The notes beneath the pieces are model-generated. The model made no database searches and was not told where the DNA came from. It saw only the letters and a list, made by a program, of their open reading frames with translations. Shown piece after piece: positions 5,909-19,445 of a stretch of DNA of 45,509 nucleotides (the first letter of the stretch is position 1; every line of letters begins with the position of its first letter). Both the position numbers and the translations under genes were made by a program. Source of the DNA: Psychromonas sp. B3M02 (GTDB taxonomy: Bacteria; Pseudomonadota; Gammaproteobacteria; Enterobacterales; Psychromonadaceae); contig NZ_QOCB01000136.1 of assembly GCF_003318165.1 (NCBI RefSeq), forward strand, positions 1 through 45,509. Direction: 5' to 3'.

Positions 5909-7747
5909 GTGACAACTAATAATATGCCATTAGGACGCCGTATTAATACTTTATGTTTTTTATTATACTGCATTACCTTGGTTATTAGTCTCCACACACT
6001 ATGGCAAACCAGTTACCAGTCATTACAAATCAGCAACCAGCAACAATTAGAGCGCTTTAAACGTCACTTAGATAGCCAACTTGGACACTACGCGTTTATT
6101 CCGCAGTTATTATCGGCACAGGATGTCATCTTTAACGCGTTTCAATACCCAAATAATCCATCTGTCATAGATAACATCAATAAACATCTGCAATCTATAA
6201 ATAACATCGTCACTGCGTCAGACACTTACTTACTTGATAAACATGGGACTACTATTGCAGCCAGTAATTGGCAAAAAGAGACTACTTTTATCGGCAACAA
6301 TTTCGACTTTCGTCCCTATTTCCAAGATGCAATACAAGGGCAGCGTGCGCAGTACTTTGCGTTAGGGTCTCGTTCAGGAAAACGAGGATACTATTTTTCC
6401 TATCCAATTAAGAATGAACAACAGGTGATTGGGGTTATCGTGGTCAAGATGGATCTGTCTTTAATTGAAAAGGATTGGATAGGCAAAGAGCAGGATTTTT
6501 TGGTTACCGATAACGATGGCATCGTATTTATTTCATCAAGAGCAGATTGGCTATTTCATAGTTTAAAACCTTTATCGAAACAACAGGTCAGAGCCATCAA
6601 TAATGAAAAACGTTACTTACAGCGCCCGATACCATCTTTACCACCTATTTATGGTGCATTAGATAAGCAAGCAAGTTTACTTACTTTAGCGAATAAACGC
6701 CCTTTCTCTAATTATTACTTATCCTTGTTCACTGTCTCTGAAGATAAGCAATGGACAGTAAGAGTCTTTGCGCCGATTGTCCCTATTATTATCGAACTAT
6801 TAATTTTAACCTTAATAATCACCTTGCTTTATTTACTCATCTATCTCTCTTTAATCATGGTTAAACAACAATTACATCGCCACCAAGAACAAGTGCGTTT
6901 AGAAGCGAAAGCAAAACAAACCTTAGAAATGACGGTATTAGAAAGAACGTCTGCGTTACAGGCGGAAATCGAAGAAAGACATAAAGCGGAAACAGCTTTA
7001 CGCTCAACTCAAAAAGAGCTTATACAATCAGCCAAACTCGCAGTATTAGGACAACTATCCACCAGCATAAGTCATGAATTAAATAACCCTCTCTCAGCCA
7101 TTCGCAGTTATGCTGATAACGCCATTGTTTATTTGGACAGAGACAAACTAGATAATGTTCATGAAAATTTAACGCGTATCACTTCCTTAACCGAACGTAT
7201 GGCCAAAATTAGTGCACAACTTAAATCTTTTGCGAGAAAATCCGATGGAGAATTACAAGTAGTCGCGTTACAGCCGGTAATTTTAGCGGCACAAGAGTTA
7301 CTTAAAGCGCAATTTAAAAGTCAACAAGTTGAATTGACATTAGATATGCCAACCACCTTCATTGAAGTTAAAGCTGACGCTATCCAACTAGAGCAAATTA
7401 TTATCAACCTACTCTCTAATGCTTTGCAATCCATGCAAGGTAGTCAGCAAAAACAAATAAAAGTAAGGCTTAGCTATAACGAAAATGAAGCGATCATCAA
7501 AGTACTGGATAAAGGTACAGGCATAGATAAAAACCACTTAGCACAGCTTTTTGAACCTTTTTTTACCACCAAAAAAACAGGATTAGGGTTAGGGCTTTCT
7601 ATTTCACAACAAATTATTAATAACATGCAAGGTAAATTAACTGCCCAAAATAGACAAGAGCAAGGCGCTGAGTTCACCATTAGCCTGCCAATCTATCTGT
7701 CCCTTAAAACAGTTAATGAAAGCAGCAGTAAGGAGCACGCTCAATGA
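5909..7747 (+). CDS. dctB: C4-dicarboxylate sensor histidine kinase DctB
   Basis: A 612-residue membrane sensor kinase. A first transmembrane helix (about residues 12-32) and a second (about 292-320) bracket a large periplasmic sensor region typical of the double-PDC/PAS DctB type. A coiled coil (about 325-370) leads to the kinase core with phosphoacceptor His389 in SISHELNNPLSAI, N-box NLLSNALQSM, G1 DKGTGID and G2 GLGLGLSI. GTG at 5909 is taken as the start because an AAGGG sequence lies 8 nt upstream; the ATG at 5924 lacks one. It overlaps dctD by 4 bp (ATGA). Expected role: sense external succinate, fumarate or malate and phosphorylate DctD. Confidence 0.9.
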   Translation: MTTNNMPLGRRINTLCFLLYCITLVISLHTLWQTSYQSLQISNQQQLERFKRHLDSQLGHYAFIPQLLSAQDVIFNAFQYPNNPSVIDNINKHLQSINNIVTASDTYLLDKHGTTIAASNWQKETTFIGNNFDFRPYFQDAIQGQRAQYFALGSRSGKRGYYFSYPIKNEQQVIGVIVVKMDLSLIEKDWIGKEQDFLVTDNDGIVFISSRADWLFHSLKPLSKQQVRAINNEKRYLQRPIPSLPPIYGALDKQASLLTLANKRPFSNYYLSLFTVSEDKQWTVRVFAPIVPIIIELLILTLIITLLYLLIYLSLIMVKQQLHRHQEQVRLEAKAKQTLEMTVLERTSALQAEIEERHKAETALRSTQKELIQSAKLAVLGQLSTSISHELNNPLSAIRSYADNAIVYLDRDKLDNVHENLTRITSLTERMAKISAQLKSFARKSDGELQVVALQPVILAAQELLKAQFKSQQVELTLDMPTTFIEVKADAIQLEQIIINLLSNALQSMQGSQQKQIKVRLSYNENEAIIKVLDKGTGIDKNHLAQLFEPFFTTKKTGLGLGLSISQQIINNMQGKLTAQNRQEQGAEFTISLPIYLSLKTVNESSSKEHAQ

Positions 7748-9072
7748 TATTTTTTATTGATGATGAAGAGGATATGCGCATCGCTCATCAACAAAGCTTT
7801 GCTTTAGCAGATATACAAGCACAATGTTTTGCTGACGCAGAATCCGCGTTAGTGGCAATGCAAAGCCACTCTCCCTTAATGATCATCTCCGATATTCGTT
7901 TACCTGGGATCACAGGTCTACAACTGTTAAATACAATACAGCAAAAAGACGCCGACTTACCCATTGTGTTAATTACCGGTCATGGTGATATCTCTATGGC
8001 AGTAGAAGCAATCAGAAATGGCGCTTATGATTTCATAGAAAAACCCTTTGCTTCAGATAGGTTAATAGAGATTACCCGTAAAGCCATTGAAAAAAGACAG
8101 TTAACCCTGGAAAACCGTGAATTAAAAAGGGCCCTACAAAGTAAAGATATATTAGGCCCTAGGATCATAGGCAATACACCAAGTATTGTTGCTTTAAAGC
8201 AGATGATCTGCCGAGTTGCTGATAGTCATGCGGATATTTTACTTTATGGTGAAACGGGGACAGGCAAAGAGTTAGTCGCGCGATCATTACACGAACAAAG
8301 CCAACGCAGTGAGCATAACTTTGTTGCAGTAAATTGTGGGGCAGTACCTGAAAACTTAATTGAGAGTGAGCTATATGGCCATGAAAAAGGCGCTTTTACC
8401 GGCGCAGAATCGCAACGCATAGGTAAATTCGAATATGCACAGGGAGGCACTCTATTTCTTGATGAGATTGAGTCTATGCCGATGCAAGCACAAGTTAGGT
8501 TGTTAAGAGTATTACAAGAGCGTACTTTAGAAAGAGTCGGCTCTAATAAAGCCATAGACTTAGATATCAGGATCATAGCAGCAACAAAAGTAGATTTAAA
8601 AGAAACCGAACATTTTCGACAAGATCTCTATTATCGCTTAAACATGGTCACTTTAGACTTACCGCCATTACGCCAACGTAAGGAAGATATTGCTCCACTG
8701 TTTCATCATTTCTTACTCGTCGCAGCAGCACGTTATGGAAAAGCAGCACCCGCGCTCCCCGCTGATTCGTTACAAGCCTTAATCAGTCATGATTGGCCTG
8801 GCAATGTCAGAGAATTAAGAAATGCCGCAGAGCGATTCATCTTATTAGGAAGTTTATCAGATTTGAATCAAGCCAATAATAACATTAACGCTGGCTTAAG
8901 TTTGTCTGAACAAGTTGAGGTATTTGAAAAGACCTTAATAGAGCAAGCCTTAAGTATCAATAATGGCTGTATTAAAGACACCATGGAAGCACTTACCTTA
9001 CCGCGTAAAACCTTATACGATAAAATGCAAAAACATGGCTTACAAAAGCAGAACTTTAAAAGTGAGGAGTAG
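7744..9072 (+). CDS. dctD: Sigma-54-dependent response regulator DctD
   Basis: A 442-residue NtrC-class activator. The receiver domain has phosphoacceptor Asp50 in MIISDIRLPG. The AAA+ domain has Walker A GETGTGKE (about 170) and GAFTGA (about 216), the loop that contacts sigma-54, then LFLDEI and the arginine-finger region. A Fis-type helix-turn-helix closes the protein (about 400-438). Translationally coupled to dctB. The obvious target is the sigma-54 promoter before dctP. Convergent with dctM and separated from it by a bidirectional terminator. Domain order, length and context all agree. Confidence 0.92.
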   Translation: MIFFIDDEEDMRIAHQQSFALADIQAQCFADAESALVAMQSHSPLMIISDIRLPGITGLQLLNTIQQKDADLPIVLITGHGDISMAVEAIRNGAYDFIEKPFASDRLIEITRKAIEKRQLTLENRELKRALQSKDILGPRIIGNTPSIVALKQMICRVADSHADILLYGETGTGKELVARSLHEQSQRSEHNFVAVNCGAVPENLIESELYGHEKGAFTGAESQRIGKFEYAQGGTLFLDEIESMPMQAQVRLLRVLQERTLERVGSNKAIDLDIRIIAATKVDLKETEHFRQDLYYRLNMVTLDLPPLRQRKEDIAPLFHHFLLVAAARYGKAAPALPADSLQALISHDWPGNVRELRNAAERFILLGSLSDLNQANNNINAGLSLSEQVEVFEKTLIEQALSINNGCIKDTMEALTLPRKTLYDKMQKHGLQKQNFKSEE

Positions 9073-12644: not shown

Positions 12645-13364
12645 TTAACCTTTACGTTGTTGACGTCTTATGCCAACTAATCCCATTAACCCCATCGCAA
12701 ACACTGCTAACGTAGTTGGCTCAGGCACTGAGGTGGTTGACGCAGTAAAATCAATATTACTGATTGCACCCGACCCATATAGATTAATCTCTATCGAAGA
12801 AACATCTGCCACATCAAAGTACAAACGGTCCCAGGTATTATCGCCACCTGTATTTGGTGTAAAGAACTCACCGATATTTAACTCTAAACCATTAACGTCA
12901 TATAAATGGATGGCGGTATTAGTATTTGTTTCAGTGTATTCAACATCAAAGAAATCGATACTATTTAAAATAACACTTTCAGAGAAGTCGATAGTGAAAT
13001 ACCCTGCAGGACGACTACCTTCATCATCAGGGTTACTACAGGTGAATGCATCACAAGACTTTGGTTTTTCGTGAATAATTAATATATTACCTGGGTTAGA
13101 TACTCCTAGGCTTGGGTTGTTTACATTAGTAAAAGGCGACTCTAAATCTGGGTCAGCGGTATTATCTAATGTGCTATCAAATACAACGGCTAGATTTGAT
13201 TTGTTTCGGTCAACATTAACACCATCAAAAGTGACACCATAAGTTGACAAATACTCATCATCAACACGTGTGCCGTTGTCTAAATCATCAAATGTAATAG
13301 TGGTAGCCGAAGCTAATGGCGCTATCACAGCAGATGCTAGTATCATCCAATGTTTAACAATCAT
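12645..13364 (-). CDS. PEP-CTERM sorting domain surface protein
   Basis: A 239-residue exported protein. The signal peptide ends near LASA (about residue 20), and the C-terminus carries the tripartite sorting tag: VPEPTTLA (about 213-220), a hydrophobic helix, and RRQQRK. The intervening domain is rich in Asp, Asn, Thr and beta-strand patterns, typical of PEP-CTERM cargo; I recognise no enzyme motif. One cysteine pair (CDAFTC) is present. AAGGAG precedes the ATG. PEP-CTERM tags are processed by exosortase (EpsH type) and are linked to exopolysaccharide or biofilm production; no exosortase is in this window. Single-gene unit with its own terminator. Confidence 0.9.
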   Translation of the reverse strand: MIVKHWMILASAVIAPLASATTITFDDLDNGTRVDDEYLSTYGVTFDGVNVDRNKSNLAVVFDSTLDNTADPDLESPFTNVNNPSLGVSNPGNILIIHEKPKSCDAFTCSNPDDEGSRPAGYFTIDFSESVILNSIDFFDVEYTETNTNTAIHLYDVNGLELNIGEFFTPNTGGDNTWDRLYFDVADVSSIEINLYGSGAISNIDFTASTTSVPEPTTLAVFAMGLMGLVGIRRQQRKG

Positions 13365-14821: not shown

Positions 14822-15221
14822 AACATTTCCTAAATACAAAAAATAAAGGAGCGAGATATTACCCGATCCAATAATAAATACCTAGGTGATGACAGTTAAA
14901 AAAACATAAACAGTCACTGTTAGCTTAATTAGCACGCAACAATCAGGAACAAAGCCTAAAACAAAAATTAGCAACAAAAAACCAAACGAAAAAGACAAGT
15001 AACTTATTCTTTATAGGTAACGCCCCTATTTAGTGCATAACACTATTTTTGTTGTGCGATGGTGCAAAATAAATAGCTAAAAGATGAATCTAAAATACCG
15101 AATAAAGGTTAACTTATTGATATTTATATAAATTTAAAACATGGCACTCATCGTGCTATGTTTTACCAAGAACAACCTTGTTAATTAAATGTTAAAATGG
15201 ATTTTAATGGAGGTAATAGCA
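14822..15221. other. 400-bp divergent promoter region of yegD and the nasT-like gene
   Basis: No gene is seen. The left part should hold the yegD promoter. The right part holds the sigma-54 element at 15142-15157 and, at 15032-15066, two half-sites (AGTGCA and GGTGCA) that match one arm of the NtrC consensus. Confidence 0.6.
15142..15157 (+). promoter_or_regulatory. Sigma-54 promoter of the nasT-nrtABC cluster
   Basis: TGGCACTCATCGTGCT matches the -24 box perfectly and keeps GG and GC exactly 10 bp apart. Predicted transcription start is near 15168, about 54 nt before the chosen start codon at 15222. Half-sites GGTGCA (15061-15066) and AGTGCA (15032-15037) lie about 105 and 134 bp upstream of that start, the usual place for NtrC enhancers, but their partner arms are poor. 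The element also lies inside a 12-bp near-palindrome (15137-15165), so a hairpin is an alternative reading. Confidence 0.72.
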
Positions 15222-15836
15222 ATGGATGCGTTAACCAATTCTCACCCTAATCTGACTGTGTTATTAATTGAAGACAGGCCTAACGACCAGTCTGAATTGA
15301 AACATCACCTCATCCACCTCAATTATACTATTTCTTTACACATTGATACCCAACAAGCTATTTCATCAACTTGCACTGATACCGTCGCAGACATCATGGT
15401 GATCAATACACACACACCTAGTGACCGTATTTTAAAAGAGCTCACCAACATCGATAAATTAACACCATTACCTGTGTTAGTTTTTGCCAAACAAGATGCA
15501 AGAGAGATGATTCAATCGACATTAAAAGCCGGAGTAAGCGCTTATATAGTTGGTGAAATACAAGAAAGTCGATTGACTTGCCTGATTGATGTAGCAATAG
15601 AACGTTTCAAACAACGCCAATCTTTAATTGCAGAGCTTAAGAAAACTAAAGCACAATTGGCCGATAGAAAAACAGTGGAGAAAGCCAAAGGTTACATCAT
15701 GCAAGAGAAGCAAGTAACCGAACAACAAGCTTTTACCTTATTACGTAACATGGCAATGAATAATGGACAATCATTAGCCACTGTTGCAAAAAGTGTTATT
15801 GAAGTGACTGAGTTACTTGAACACAAGGTGAAATAA
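15222..15836 (+). CDS. nasT: ANTAR-domain antitermination regulator, NasT-like
   Basis: A 204-residue two-domain protein: an N-terminal CheY-like receiver (about residues 9-120), a linker coiled coil, and a C-terminal ANTAR RNA-binding domain (about 143-200) with the signature VEKAKGYIMQEKQVTEQQAF followed by LRNMAMNNGQSL. The usual phosphoacceptor Asp of NasT proteins (IDT-SP type) is Asn here (VINTHTP, about residue 56), so it is a pseudo-receiver. Start set at 15222 because GGAGG lies 8 nt upstream; the frame is open 11 codons further. It should bind hexaloop hairpins in the leader that follows and block termination before nrtA. No NasS nitrate sensor is adjacent. Confidence 0.85.
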   Translation: MDALTNSHPNLTVLLIEDRPNDQSELKHHLIHLNYTISLHIDTQQAISSTCTDTVADIMVINTHTPSDRILKELTNIDKLTPLPVLVFAKQDAREMIQSTLKAGVSAYIVGEIQESRLTCLIDVAIERFKQRQSLIAELKKTKAQLADRKTVEKAKGYIMQEKQVTEQQAFTLLRNMAMNNGQSLATVAKSVIEVTELLEHKVK

Positions 15837-15855: not shown

Positions 15856-15883
15856 AGCTTTTTTATCAATGGCGATAAAAGCT
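15856..15883 (+). ncRNA. Hexaloop hairpin P1 after the nasT-like gene
   Basis: A stem of about 10 bp (AGC...ATC pairing with GATAAAAGCT, two unpaired Us on the 5' side) closes a six-base loop AAUGGC at 15868-15873. A at loop position 1 and G at position 4 fit the ANTAR hexaloop rule. It is about 60 nt from P2, farther than the usual pair spacing, so it may be an extra binding site or only a 3' hairpin of the nasT message. Confidence 0.55.
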
Positions 15884-15941
15884 GACTACACAAGGTAAAT
15901 AGAAATACCCATTACTACCAATAATAGTAAAGGCTATCAAC

Positions 15942-15983
15942 GCATAAACAATGACGTTTATGTTTGAAAGAGCAACGGCGCTC
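15942..15983 (+). ncRNA. ANTAR-type dual hexaloop RNA motif (P2 and P3)
   Basis: P2 is a perfect 7-bp stem (CATAAAC / GTTTATG) with hexaloop AAUGAC (15950-15955). P3, 6 nt after P2, is a 4-bp stem (GAGC / GCTC) with hexaloop AACGGC (15974-15979). Both loops have A1 and G4, the positions conserved in ANTAR RNA ligands. P3 shares bases with the 5' arm of the terminator at 15977-16020, so protein-stabilised P3 would exclude the terminator. This fits the published ANTAR antitermination model. Confidence 0.8.
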
Positions 15984-16028
15984 ATTAATTACCTAATTTA
16001 TTAGGTGATTGGTGGGCGCTTTTTTTTT
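15977..16028 (+). terminator. Leader terminator before nrtA, target of antitermination
   Basis: Arms at 15977-15995 and 16002-16020 form a 19-bp stem with several G-U pairs and a 6-nt loop (AUUUAU), followed by nine Us. It is a strong intrinsic terminator placed 38 nt before the nrtA start codon and downstream of the nasT-like gene. It should stop nrtABC transcription unless hairpin P3 forms instead. Confidence 0.9.
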
Positions 16029-16065: not shown

Positions 16066-17451
16066 ATGAGTTGGATTAAACCAGTCAAGTTTGTCGCTAA
16101 AAAGCTAGCATTGAGCATCGCTATTTCGGCAACCGTTATCTCTTATTCTCACGCTGATAAAATTGGCTACCCAGAAAAAGAGGAACTTAAATTTGGTTTT
16201 ATTAAATTAACCGATATGGCTCCCATAGCAATCGCTTACGAAAATGGTTACTTCGAAGATGAAGGACTGTACGTAACAATAGAAGCGCAAGCAAACTGGA
16301 AAGTATTATTAAACGGTTTAATTGATGGCAGTTTAGACGGCGCACATATGCTGGCTGGTCAACCAATTGCAGCAACCATGGGCTTTGGTACTAAAGCACA
16401 TATTATCACCCCTTTCTCAATGGATTTAAATGGTAATGCAATCACCGTCTCTAATGAGATTTGGGATAAGATGAAACCCAACATTCCAAAACAAGCCGAT
16501 GGTAAACCAGTCCACCCTATTAAAGCTGATGCATTAAAACCCGTTGTTGAATCATATAAAGCCGAGGGTAAACCCTTTAACCTAGGTATGGTATTCCCGG
16601 TTTCAACTCATAACTATGAATTACGATACTGGCTAGCTGCTGGTGGCATACACCCAGGATTTTACGCACCACATAAAGGGGATACTAGCGGACATATTGA
16701 TGGCGATGCGATCTTATCAGTAACACCACCACCACAAATGCCATCTACCTTAGAAGCTGGCACGATTTATGGTTACTGTGTAGGTGAACCTTGGAACCAA
16801 CAAGCCGTATTTAAAGGGATTGGTGTGCCAGTGGTGACCGATTACGAAATTTGGAAAAATAACCCAGAAAAAGTATTTGGTTTAACAGCTGAGTTTGCAG
16901 AAAAATACCCTAATACGACTATCCGTTTAACCCGCGCCTTAATCCGTGCAGCAATGTGGTTAGATGAAAATGACAATGCTAACCGCCCAGCTGCGGTGAA
17001 GATCTTGTCACAATCTAACTACGTGGGTGCTGATTATGAAGTGATTGCAAATAGTATGACGGGAACCTTTGAATATGAAAAAGGTGACAAACGTGACGTG
17101 CCTGACTTCAACGTATTCTTTAGACACAATGCAACCTACCCATACTACTCAGATGCAATTTGGTACTTAACACAAATGCGTCGTTGGGGACAAATTTCAG
17201 AACAAAAATCAGATGAATGGTATAAGGATTTAGCGAAAAAAGTATATCGCCCTGACATTTATCAAGTTGCAGCACAATCATTGATTGATGAAAAAGTAGC
17301 TGATGCAAAAGACTTCCCTGACTTTGCCACTGAAACAGGTTACCGAGCACCACAACAACACTTTATTGATGATTTAGTGTATGACGGTAATACACCAAAC
17401 GCTTACATTGATGCATTTGAAATTGGGCTTAAAAAGAGCGACAAACTTTAA
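16066..17451 (+). CDS. nrtA: Nitrate ABC transporter binding protein NrtA
   Basis: A 461-residue periplasmic binding protein of the NrtA/CmpA family. The signal peptide ends near SHA (about residue 31), so this is a transporter component and not the cytoplasmic nitrate sensor NasS, a homologue without one. Family features include [18 protein letters not shown] at the N-terminus, [20 protein letters not shown], and [14 protein letters not shown]. Start set at 16066 (MSWIKP), where AAGGA lies 9 nt upstream; earlier in-frame codons fall within the terminator's U-tract. First structural gene after the ANTAR leader. Nitrate is the likely ligand; nitrite or cyanate cannot be ruled out by sequence alone. 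Confidence 0.88.
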
Positions 17452-17567: not shown

Positions 17568-18563
17568 ATGACGACTAGCTCAGTAAGTAGCAAATCAGCA
17601 ATTTCATCGGCAACAAACGTGAAAATTCAAAAGTTTGTTAAAAGTACAACCCGAATACTCGCCCTACCATTGTTAGGCATTATGGTATTTTTATTGTTAT
17701 GGAGTATCGCCGCTAAAAATATACATACGTCTTTGGGTGAATTCCCAGGACCCAATGCGGTATTTAACCAATTTAGCTCACTCTACGATGAACACACCGC
17801 CGAACGAGAAAAAGCTGATAAATTTTACGAGCGTCAAGAGATTCGTAATGCCAAACGAGTAGAAGACGATCCAACCTACGTCCCTAAAATCAGAAAATAC
17901 ACAGGTAAAGAGACTTTTGTCGATCAAATATTTACCAGCTTAATTACCGTAACCAGTGGCTTTTTACTGGCAGCTATTATTGCCATTCCACTCGGTATCG
18001 CAATGGGATTAAGTAAAAACCTAAACGCCGCCATCAACCCTATTATTCAGATATTTAAACCCGTTTCACCATTAGCCTGGTTGCCACTGGTGACTATGGT
18101 AGTAAGTGCGCTATATGTATCAAGCGATCCATTAGTCTCTAAATCATTTGTTAACTCACTACTCACAGTAACCCTATGTAGCCTTTGGCCTATGGTCATT
18201 AACACATCAATTGGTGTTTCTTCATTAGACCAAGACTTAAAAAATGTAAGTCGAGTGTTACGTTTACCAATTTTAACTCATATCCGTAAAATCGTATTAC
18301 CAGCGTCGGTACCGATGATCTTCACCGGTATGCGTTTATCTTTTGGTGTGGCATGGATGGTATTAATCGCCGCAGAAATGCTTGCGCAAAATCCAGGTTT
18401 AGGAAAATTTGTATGGGATGAATTCCAAAACGGAAGTTCAGATTCATTAGCGCGCATTATGGCCGCCGTGATCGTGATTGGTTTCATCGGTTTTATCCTA
18501 GATAGAGGCATGTTACAGCTACAACGCTTTGCATCTTGGGATAAATCAGCAACAACAGTTTAA
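17568..18563 (+). CDS. nrtB: Nitrate ABC transporter permease NrtB
   Basis: A 331-residue inner-membrane permease of the BPD_transp_1 family. One N-terminal helix (about residues 33-52) is followed by a long charged segment (about 75-120, with YERQEIRNAKR) that I recall from proteobacterial NrtB proteins, then about five transmembrane helices. FKPVSPLAWLPLVTMV and the EAA-like loop LKNVSRVLRLPILTHIRKIVLPAS, which contacts the ATPase, are clear. It lies 116 bp after nrtA, separated by a hairpin, and 45 bp before nrtC. With NrtA and NrtC it should form a high-affinity nitrate importer. Confidence 0.9.
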   Translation: MTTSSVSSKSAISSATNVKIQKFVKSTTRILALPLLGIMVFLLLWSIAAKNIHTSLGEFPGPNAVFNQFSSLYDEHTAEREKADKFYERQEIRNAKRVEDDPTYVPKIRKYTGKETFVDQIFTSLITVTSGFLLAAIIAIPLGIAMGLSKNLNAAINPIIQIFKPVSPLAWLPLVTMVVSALYVSSDPLVSKSFVNSLLTVTLCSLWPMVINTSIGVSSLDQDLKNVSRVLRLPILTHIRKIVLPASVPMIFTGMRLSFGVAWMVLIAAEMLAQNPGLGKFVWDEFQNGSSDSLARIMAAVIVIGFIGFILDRGMLQLQRFASWDKSATTV

Positions 18564-18608: not shown

Positions 18609-19445
18609 ATGAGCACATTACTTGATATAAGCCATATCGATATGGTTTTCCCAACACCAACGGGCGGTTTTACAGCCCTAAAGGATGTTGATTTAAAGAT
18701 TAAAAAAGGTGAGTTCGTTTCATTAATTGGCCACTCAGGCTGTGGTAAATCAACGGTATTAAATGTGGTTGCAGGACTTTATCAAGCAACCACAGGTGGT
18801 GTTATTTTAGGTGGTAGAGAAGTCACAGAGCCAGGCCCTGAACGCGCCGTTGTTTTTCAAAACCATTCATTATTACCTTGGTTAACAGCCTACCAGAATG
18901 TTGAACTCGCCGTTGAGCAAGTATTTGGCTCTAAAATGGGTAAAGTAGAAAAGAAAGAATGGATTGAGCATAACCTCAAGTTAGTGCATATGGATCATGC
19001 CATGTACAAACGCCCTAATGAAATTTCAGGTGGTATGAAACAACGTGTAGGTATTGCTCGCGCATTAGCTATGCAACCGGAAGTGTTACTAATGGATGAA
19101 CCATTTGGTGCATTGGATGCATTAACACGAGCACACATGCAAGATTCATTGATGGAAATTCAAAATGAATTAAATAACACCGTGATTATGATCACCCATG
19201 ATGTGGACGAAGCGGTATTATTATCCGATAGAATTGTGATGATGACTAATGGACCGAGTGCAACGGTAGGTGAAATATTAGAAGTAAACTTAGAGCGTCC
19301 TCGTGATCGTTTGAGTCTGTCTAAAGACCCACACTATAATCGTTTACGATCAGATGTATTAACTTTCTTGTATGAAAAACAACGTAAGGTTGAAACAATC
19401 AAAAGTAAAACCGTGGCCAGTTCGACACAAAGTAAAACCGCTTAA
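18609..19445 (+). CDS. nrtC: Nitrate ABC transporter ATP-binding protein
   Basis: A 278-residue ATPase of the nitrate/sulfonate/taurine type. Walker A GHSGCGKST (about residues 43-51), Q-loop VVFQNHSLLPW, signature ISGGMKQR, Walker B VLLMDEP and switch His in MITHDVDEA are all present. It corresponds in size to the NrtD-type short ATPase and lacks the extra NrtA-like domain of cyanobacterial NrtC, so the symbol follows proteobacterial usage. Last gene of the cluster, with a terminator about 54 bp beyond its stop. A 14-bp direct duplication (19439-19466) spans the stop codon. Confidence 0.9.
   Translation: MSTLLDISHIDMVFPTPTGGFTALKDVDLKIKKGEFVSLIGHSGCGKSTVLNVVAGLYQATTGGVILGGREVTEPGPERAVVFQNHSLLPWLTAYQNVELAVEQVFGSKMGKVEKKEWIEHNLKLVHMDHAMYKRPNEISGGMKQRVGIARALAMQPEVLLMDEPFGALDALTRAHMQDSLMEIQNELNNTVIMITHDVDEAVLLSDRIVMMTNGPSATVGEILEVNLERPRDRLSLSKDPHYNRLRSDVLTFLYEKQRKVETIKSKTVASSTQSKTA

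Follow-up and report, generated by a model that had tools for sequence, protein, structure and literature searches.

ANTAR switches have so far been described as dual-hexaloop devices, and the leader that precedes the nrtABC genes of Psychromonas sp. B3M02 raises the question of what a third hexaloop hairpin contributes to such a device. The leader lies in a contig of 45,509 nucleotides, all of which was analysed and which is hereafter called the window; its relevant features are collected in Table 1. The earlier note on this DNA had read the region as an ANTAR antitermination leader with three hexaloop hairpins, and had suggested that the most upstream of these (hairpin 1) might be a distal or autoregulatory site. 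From comparison of related leaders we consider it probable that the region controls nrtABC as an ANTAR antitermination leader with three sites, in which hairpin 1 would serve as an upstream capture site. Because the NasT clade to which the regulator belongs has no detected NasS and no phosphosite, the locus also raises the question of which signal controls nitrate uptake in these bacteria.

Genes and hairpins of the leader

Table 1. Features of the nasT-nrtABC locus (window coordinates)
Feature	Position	Strand	Details
Sigma54-like promoter site (GG-N10-GC, ATGGCACTCATCGTGCT)	15141..15157	+	64 nt ahead of likely nasT start codon
nasT-like gene, degenerate REC + ANTAR RNA-binding domain	15222..15836	+	PF03861 62.9 bits; PF00072 (REC) 28.1 bits, below its cut-off of 30.2 bits
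Hairpin 1, added ANTAR-type hexaloop	15860..15881	+	loop AATGGC (AAUGGC) 15868-15873
Hairpin 2, first (P1-like) member of canonical dual hexaloop	15942..15963	+	loop AATGAC (AAUGAC) 15950-15955
Hairpin 3, second (P2-like) member	15970..15983	+	loop AACGGC 15974-15979; overlaps terminator
Intrinsic terminator	15977..16028	+	stem 15977-16020, U tract 16020-16028
nrtA, nitrate-binding ABC transporter subunit, signal-like N-terminus	16066..17451	+	PF13379 320.5 bits
nrtB, permease	17568..18563	+	PF00528; ntrB TIGR01183 165.4 bits, under cut-off of 209
nrtC/D, ATP-binding subunit	18609..19445	+	TIGR01184 357.9 bits, over cut-off

The ANTAR regulator gene that had been noted directly upstream of the leader is borne out by the Pfam match of its product, the only ANTAR match in the 3.86-Mb genome. 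An in-frame upstream ATG of this nasT gene is present at 15189, and its product is 83% identical over 204 residues to a relative in Psychromonas sp. 14N.309.X.WAT.B.A12. Elsewhere in the window, a dCache histidine kinase gene lies beside that of a sigma54-dependent response regulator (5924-9072, +), a TRAP-type transporter operon, judged by eye, adjoins this pair on the opposite strand, and a protein with a C-terminal PEP-CTERM sorting motif (PF07589) is encoded at 12645-13364 (-).

The three six-base loops that obey the A1/G4 rule have exactly the positions and loop sequences first noted, as have the gaps of 60 nt between hairpins 1 and 2 and of 6 nt between hairpins 2 and 3. Hairpins 1 and 2 have 8-bp stems with one G-U pair in each. 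Hairpins 2 and 3 supply the two A1/G4 hexaloops by which an ANTAR-responsive leader is recognized, and hairpin 1 is additional to them. The claim that hairpin 3 shares bases with the terminator also holds, the loop end and 3' arm of this hairpin sitting in the 5' arm of the terminator. The terminator itself had been described as a 19-bp stem followed by nine Us; the nine Ts are present, and the predicted fold extends the stem to 20 bp, with G-U as its outermost pair.

A triple of C-G-closed A1/G4 hexaloops, each on a stem of 4 bp or more, arose in none of 20000 dinucleotide shuffles of the 181-nt leader (mean count of hexaloops, 0.013 per shuffle), and three A1/G4 hexaloops with any closing pair allowed arose at P = 0.00075. 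Under the C-G definition, neither strand of the whole window holds another triple within 130 nt or pair within 60 nt. Additionally, a 241-nt region is predicted to fold with a z score of -4.79, and none of 200 shuffles was equally stable. A DNA-level palindromic site is not favoured, since the asymmetric loops keep A1 and G4 and some stem pairs are G-U.

The leader has no match in Rfam 15 at the gathering score. When E values up to 10 are admitted, seven weak matches appear, which are unrelated to it and include no ANTAR-RNA family; those to miRNA, rli56 and L20_leader fall far under their cut-offs. The 14-mer pattern TATCAAYGGCGATA matches 150 of 394 genomes of the order and is therefore not specific by itself: among 30 of the matching loci, 27 matches lie inside open frames of at least 144 codons, one (L145, in G150) is a real leader, and the others are L133 and L146. 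With two mismatches allowed, the hairpin 3 pattern finds 31 sites in the window's own genome, compared with 26 for the reversed control, and the sole exact match is that in the window.

Conservation, covariation and spacing

Related loci were collected by searches for NasT in 24 genomes of the family, 394 of the order and 295 of a second family (f7), and for nrtA in 30 and 18 selected genomes, two of them in both sets. Seventeen nrtA leaders came from genomes whose NasT shares the clade of the window protein, and 16 of them have hairpin 1, which is thus a conserved part of the leader and not the stray distal site first suggested as one option. Fifteen leaders from two families (eight Psychromonas, seven f7) were aligned in full; one further leader (G618) was omitted, the loop of its hairpin 1 preceding that of hairpin 3 by as much as 243 nt. 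Alignment of related leaders had been proposed as a check on the A1/G4 rule and on stem pairing, and both withstood it: each of the 15 leaders has A1, G4 and a closing C-G in every one of its three hairpins, and the stems are kept through compensatory change. The predicted terminator folds in all 15, in each overlapping hairpin 3 through its 5' arm, and 14 of its 19 counted stem pairs vary, 12 of these with changes on both sides. This comparison supports the reading of the region as an ANTAR antitermination leader before nrtABC.

The invariant columns of the alignment differ among the hairpins. In hairpin 1 they are U, the closing C, A1, G4, the closing G and A; in hairpin 2 they are confined to the closing C, A1, G4 and the closing G; and hairpin 3 has the longer core GAGC-A1..G4.CGCTCA. 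For hairpin 1, 16 sequences could be compared, in which 94.5% of cells are paired, six of eight pairs show change on both sides, and the closing C-G, the adjacent U-A, A1 and G4 are all invariant; for hairpin 2 (15 sequences) the corresponding values are 85.7% and six of seven, imperfect forms with a mismatch or bulge occurring in G003 and G497. The covariation score is 0.394 for hairpin 1 (0.141 in shuffles, at most 0.158 with slid partners) and 0.648 for hairpin 2 (0.244 and at most 0.234); since the aligned rows are related, shuffle counts such as the 26 of 500 that reach six of seven pairs in hairpin 2 are not probabilities, whereas the slid controls preserve relatedness. The strongest single case for A1/G4 conservation is G185, whose loops AGUGUU, AUCGAG and ACAGGC keep A1 and G4 although all three are otherwise different, as are its first two stems.

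Spacing is more variable than the loops. The loops of hairpins 2 and 3 are 24 nt apart in the window and its sister, the short, constrained distance expected of an ANTAR leader and that given by the positions quoted for eutP, A29 and A53 (PMC3369931). The same distance is 24-27 nt in the eight Psychromonas leaders and 46-51 nt in the seven f7 leaders, six of which have a predicted spacer hairpin in the gap; in G394 the gap holds a further A1/G4 hairpin. Hairpins 1 and 2 are 34-38 nt apart, loop to loop, in 11 of 15 leaders and 47, 70, 77 and 82 nt in the others, the last being the window, where, as in G021, the long gap contains a small predicted hairpin. In G618 this distance is about 195 nt. 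The four longer distances and that of G618 weaken any strict geometric model. The interval in G618 (L104) contains further hexaloop-like motifs, AAGAACAAGGCGCTTGA and GAAAGCAACGATGTTATTG, and is possibly an expanded array.

A count under one strict definition, by which an A1/G4 hexaloop had to be closed by C-G, have a stem of 4 bp or more and lie within 260 nt, the poly-T being picked automatically, gives a mean of 2.94 in the 16 clade leaders with a poly-T (shuffles, 0.025). For 18 leaders whose NasT falls outside the clade, the mean is 0.83 and the maximum 2 (shuffles, 0.036), a value that does not mean one site per leader because the strict definition undercounts imperfect hairpins. These 18 comprise 16 with a NasS-like gene and two without (G174, G347); three more leaders from outside the clade (G374, G311 and G284), which the automatic procedure did not locate, are missing from the count.

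A NasT clade without detected NasS or phosphosite

In a tree of 46 NasTs, 20 rows form one clade with 100/99 support and a long stem; when seven rows from other families were added, 22 rows grouped together (G810 and G920 being the additions), with support of 95/89. The receiver phosphosite, Asn in the window protein, is N, A, G, S, V, H or K across the clade and D or E in none of the 22 rows, and among 31 NasTs outside the clade it is D in 24 and E in 5. Searches with NrtA at E 1e-20 covered 20 clade genomes in full and found a NasS-like protein in none; three of these genomes (G001, G356, G413) gave no NrtA match either, and one (G445) has nrtA in two pieces. In G810 and G920, NasS was looked for in the 16-20 kb around nasT. 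The window's own genome returned NrtA alone at that threshold, whereas in 14 other genomes the same search with this query caught NasS-like proteins, the weakest of them at E 7.5e-32. Overall, this query detected NasS-like proteins in 24 other genomes; they are 28-42% identical to NrtA and mostly encoded beside nasT.

G001, G356 and G413 carry clade nasT genes and yield no nrtA match, the G001 gene lying near a contig end. In one Psychromonas (G022, L066), nasT directly precedes nrtA, and no hexaloop hairpins or terminator were found between them; this genome, whose clade NasT has a long branch, is an apparent natural loss of the switch.

The best solved relatives of the window NasT are EutV (6wsh/6ww6), the putative antiterminator 1s8n and NasR (4akk). 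Eleven EutV residues have been described as contacting or positioning the hexaloop (PMC8934654), and these were mapped onto NasT by alignment, with a deduced numbering offset of 2. The window protein keeps eight of them (R142, K143, K147, K149, E160, R168, M172 and N173) and has Phe for Y164, Gly for R175 and Ser for R177. At the position of R177 every one of the 22 clade rows has Ser, Thr or Pro; of the 31 others, 28 have Lys or Arg there, G675 and G816 being among those with Arg. For NasR, R340 and R366 have been reported as needed for RNA binding (PMC7496416), and both positions are Arg in the window NasT, again under a deduced numbering offset. Replacement of NasR N373 by Gly was rejected as a clade-specific change, Gly being present in 13 of the 31 other proteins as well.

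Set beside the known ANTAR systems, the locus combines familiar and unfamiliar features. The eut leaders of Enterococcus faecalis, controlled by EutV, the best solved relative by sequence, likewise have A1/G4 hexaloops with a 24-nt loop spacing, a second hairpin over the terminator and a REC-ANTAR regulator; the window differs in having three hexaloops instead of two, no phosphoacceptor aspartate of the kind that defines the phosphorylation-controlled EutV/EutW type, and Ser at the Arg177 position. The NasS-NasT systems (nasTSABGHC of Paracoccus denitrificans; nos/nap of Bradyrhizobium) share with the window a NasT-type REC-ANTAR protein, antitermination before nitrate-assimilation genes and a nitrogen-controlled promoter, the last being predicted in the window; however, in the window the cytoplasmic NrtA-like sensor NasS was not detected, the phosphosite has no acidic residue, the target is a transporter operon and the leader has three hexaloops, whereas that of P. 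denitrificans is described with two hairpins, HI and HII (PMC5424462). NasR of Klebsiella oxytoca, acting at the nasF leader, also antiterminates nitrate assimilation through an ANTAR domain, but it is a one-component NIT-ANTAR fusion and its target P1P2 is described as two hairpins; the window protein matched REC and ANTAR alone, lacks the NIT sensor domain and has Gly at the N373 position. With NasS not found and the phosphosite lost, the window regulator departs in its input from both the NasS-NasT and the EutV type. Among the comparisons made, the nearest precedent is the EutX RNA, reported to have an additional single hexaloop with G4 (PMC8934654).

An alternative reading is an ordinary dual-hexaloop switch formed by hairpins 2 and 3, in which another partner protein would replace NasS and control NasT in the way that AmiC controls AmiR, hairpin 1 adding a minor gain in affinity. 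Hairpins 2 and 3 by themselves fit the canonical definition, and pseudo-receiver ANTAR proteins under the control of protein partners are described (PMC3369931). However, ten loci have only nasT and nrtABC in common, so that none of them reveals a partner gene beside nasT shared by all, though such a partner may be encoded elsewhere; apart from an Alginate_exp-like porin, a neighbour common to at least three of the ten is seen solely among four close Psychromonas; in the window's genome the four PF13379 proteins besides NrtA begin, by eye, with signal-like hydrophobic N-termini; and invariant columns are more numerous in hairpin 1 than in hairpin 2. We regard this explanation as rather unlikely and continue to favour the three-site leader. 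The porin, a PF13372 (Alginate_exp) protein encoded after nrtC (L170, 5917-7122, -; L172, 17073-18281, +) and with homologues in G618 and G394 (four of ten loci in all), is a possible outer-membrane partner.

Promoters, proposed mechanism and wider distribution

With a -24/-12 sigma54 consensus that we take to be GG-N10-GC, the site upstream of nasT in the window scores 10 of 13 and is the only one scoring at least 9 between 14001 and 16100; the consensus is loose, and the whole 45.5-kb window has 13 sites scoring at least 10, nine on the + strand and four on the - strand. Sigma54-like sites precede nasT in seven of nine Psychromonas loci, and for six of these (G000, G003, G006, G014, G016, G023) the distance from the end of the site to the likely ATG, a start codon picked by eye that follows a Shine-Dalgarno-like motif, is 41-64 nt. 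In f7, the sigma54-like site lies upstream of hairpin 1 in seven of eight loci, 43-189 nt before its loop, and in the six of these with nasT alongside it falls beyond the end of the nasT coding sequence. The seventh, G185, keeps three A1/G4 hairpins in its leader even though its nasT is located about 7 kb away. By these predictions, the same leader would be transcribed in some loci as an inner part of a nasT-nrtABC message and in others close to the start of an nrtABC message, a variation in position that speaks for hairpin 1 as part of the nrt leader.

The promoter arrangements bear directly on the autoregulatory role first suggested for hairpin 1, and on the broader alternative in which it would be a separate NasT site in the nasT 3' untranslated region, acting on autoregulation or mRNA stability and unrelated to the decision at the terminator. 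In its favour, hairpin 1 of the window starts 23 nt past the stop codon of nasT, and the Psychromonas hairpin is probably on one transcript with nasT; the f7 sites, however, would allow an nrtA transcript to start between nasT and hairpin 1, just ahead of the hairpin, and in G185 the hairpin remains in the leader at a distance from nasT, which together disfavour this explanation and make it improbable. Less probable still is that hairpin 1 is an mRNA-protecting or spacer hairpin whose A1/G4 match reflects chance or common descent: judged by their sigma54-like sites, G394 and G445 would start transcription within about 25 nt of its loop, as for a 5'-protective stem, but all 16 sequences keep A1/G4 and the closing C-G while stem letters vary, the G185 loop retains from the consensus just A1/G4 and T3, and the Psychromonas hairpin has an internal position, about 700 nt away from the promoter-like site.

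The three-site leader that we favour could operate as follows. Without active NasT, RNA polymerase would stop at the terminator. A NasT dimer would bind the A1/G4 hexaloops in the order of their emergence, from hairpin 1 through hairpin 2 to hairpin 3; with hairpin 3 held closed, its 3' arm would be kept from the terminator and transcription would proceed into nrtABC. Hairpins 2 and 3 would act as the canonical dual-hexaloop pair, and hairpin 1 as the upstream capture site, raising NasT occupancy ahead of the decision point. EutV reportedly occupies a single hexaloop at any moment, visiting each in turn (PMC8934654), and an extra site can on that model serve as a landing site. Hairpin 1 may also partly compensate for weaker binding per hairpin, a role proposed because the position by which EutV contacts the loop phosphate is no longer basic in the NasT clade. 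Since NasS was not found and the phosphosite is lost, the activity of NasT probably tracks its amount, and expression of nasT from a sigma54-like, presumably NtrC-controlled, promoter would make the leader a dosage and feed-forward gate.

We extend this proposal only tentatively, and with more doubt than conviction, to the clade as a whole, which was found in three families of Gammaproteobacteria, in one of which NasS was checked only near nasT. Without NasS or phosphorylation, its NasTs, made from a nitrogen-controlled promoter, might be dosage readers, for which the combined avidity of three hexaloops (four in G394) would set the threshold of nrtABC readthrough, a lower number of contacts at each hairpin, through loss of the R177-type basic residue, being traded for additional hairpins. 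If so, the copy number of RNA sites would be an evolvable gain control. Arg at the R177 position in G675 and G816, whose leaders have three and four hexaloops, respectively, counts against an affinity trade-off, and the R177 pattern prompts the avidity idea and does not prove it.

Among the matches listed, the titles and beginnings of abstracts in the literature contained no description of a three-hexaloop ANTAR leader or of a NasT without NasS; the covariance tables of 2012 (PMC3369931, Tables S1 and S2) may list some such leaders as dual motifs. What appears to be new, judged from sequence, is that the third hexaloop is conserved and covaries as part of the leader in a NasT clade that has no phosphosite and no detected NasS, and that similar arrays are present elsewhere. 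Natural leaders with three A1/G4 hairpins, often at conserved spacing, offer a direct test of the EutV hand-over model, and annotation pipelines and two-hairpin covariance models could miss or truncate them.

A covariance model of the leader (R1), run with stricter filters that lose weak matches, matched 13 of the 394 order genomes at one place each, in the window's own genome at the window locus only. Eleven of the 13 are known clade leaders, one is a leader outside the clade (G101), and the last (G365; L187 / L189) keeps the terminator and hairpin 3, has a U-G-closed hairpin 1 loop AAUGAA, and has lost the hairpin 2 hexaloop. NasT was not found in the G365 genome at E 1e-15, nor within 19 kb of the leader at E 1e-3, and the locus is a possible case of decay of the switch following loss of its regulator.

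In 369 genomes of the class, R1 gave ten matches, that of the window included. Three A1/G4 hairpins precede an nrtA-like gene in G810, G920 and G675, the NasT of G675 keeping the phosphoacceptor Asp, and four precede nrtA in G816 (L204, leader 2748-2886); the remaining five matches have one or two A1/G4 hairpins each by a simple scan. Multi-hexaloop ANTAR leaders are thus, by prediction, wider than this NasT clade. The arrays of G675, with its Asp, and of G816, with a NasS-like gene nearby, indicate that loss of NasS alone cannot explain the third hairpin; together with G174 and G347, in which no NasS was found and hairpin 1 is absent, they rule out hairpin 1 as a general marker of NasS loss. 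The NasS-like gene of G816 lies about 3.4 kb past the start of nrtA. G816 also has a second leader (L198) in which a simple scan detects three A1/G4 hairpins, two of them just upstream of the match; it precedes open frames, one of which resembles, by eye, an NAD(P)H-dependent reductase.
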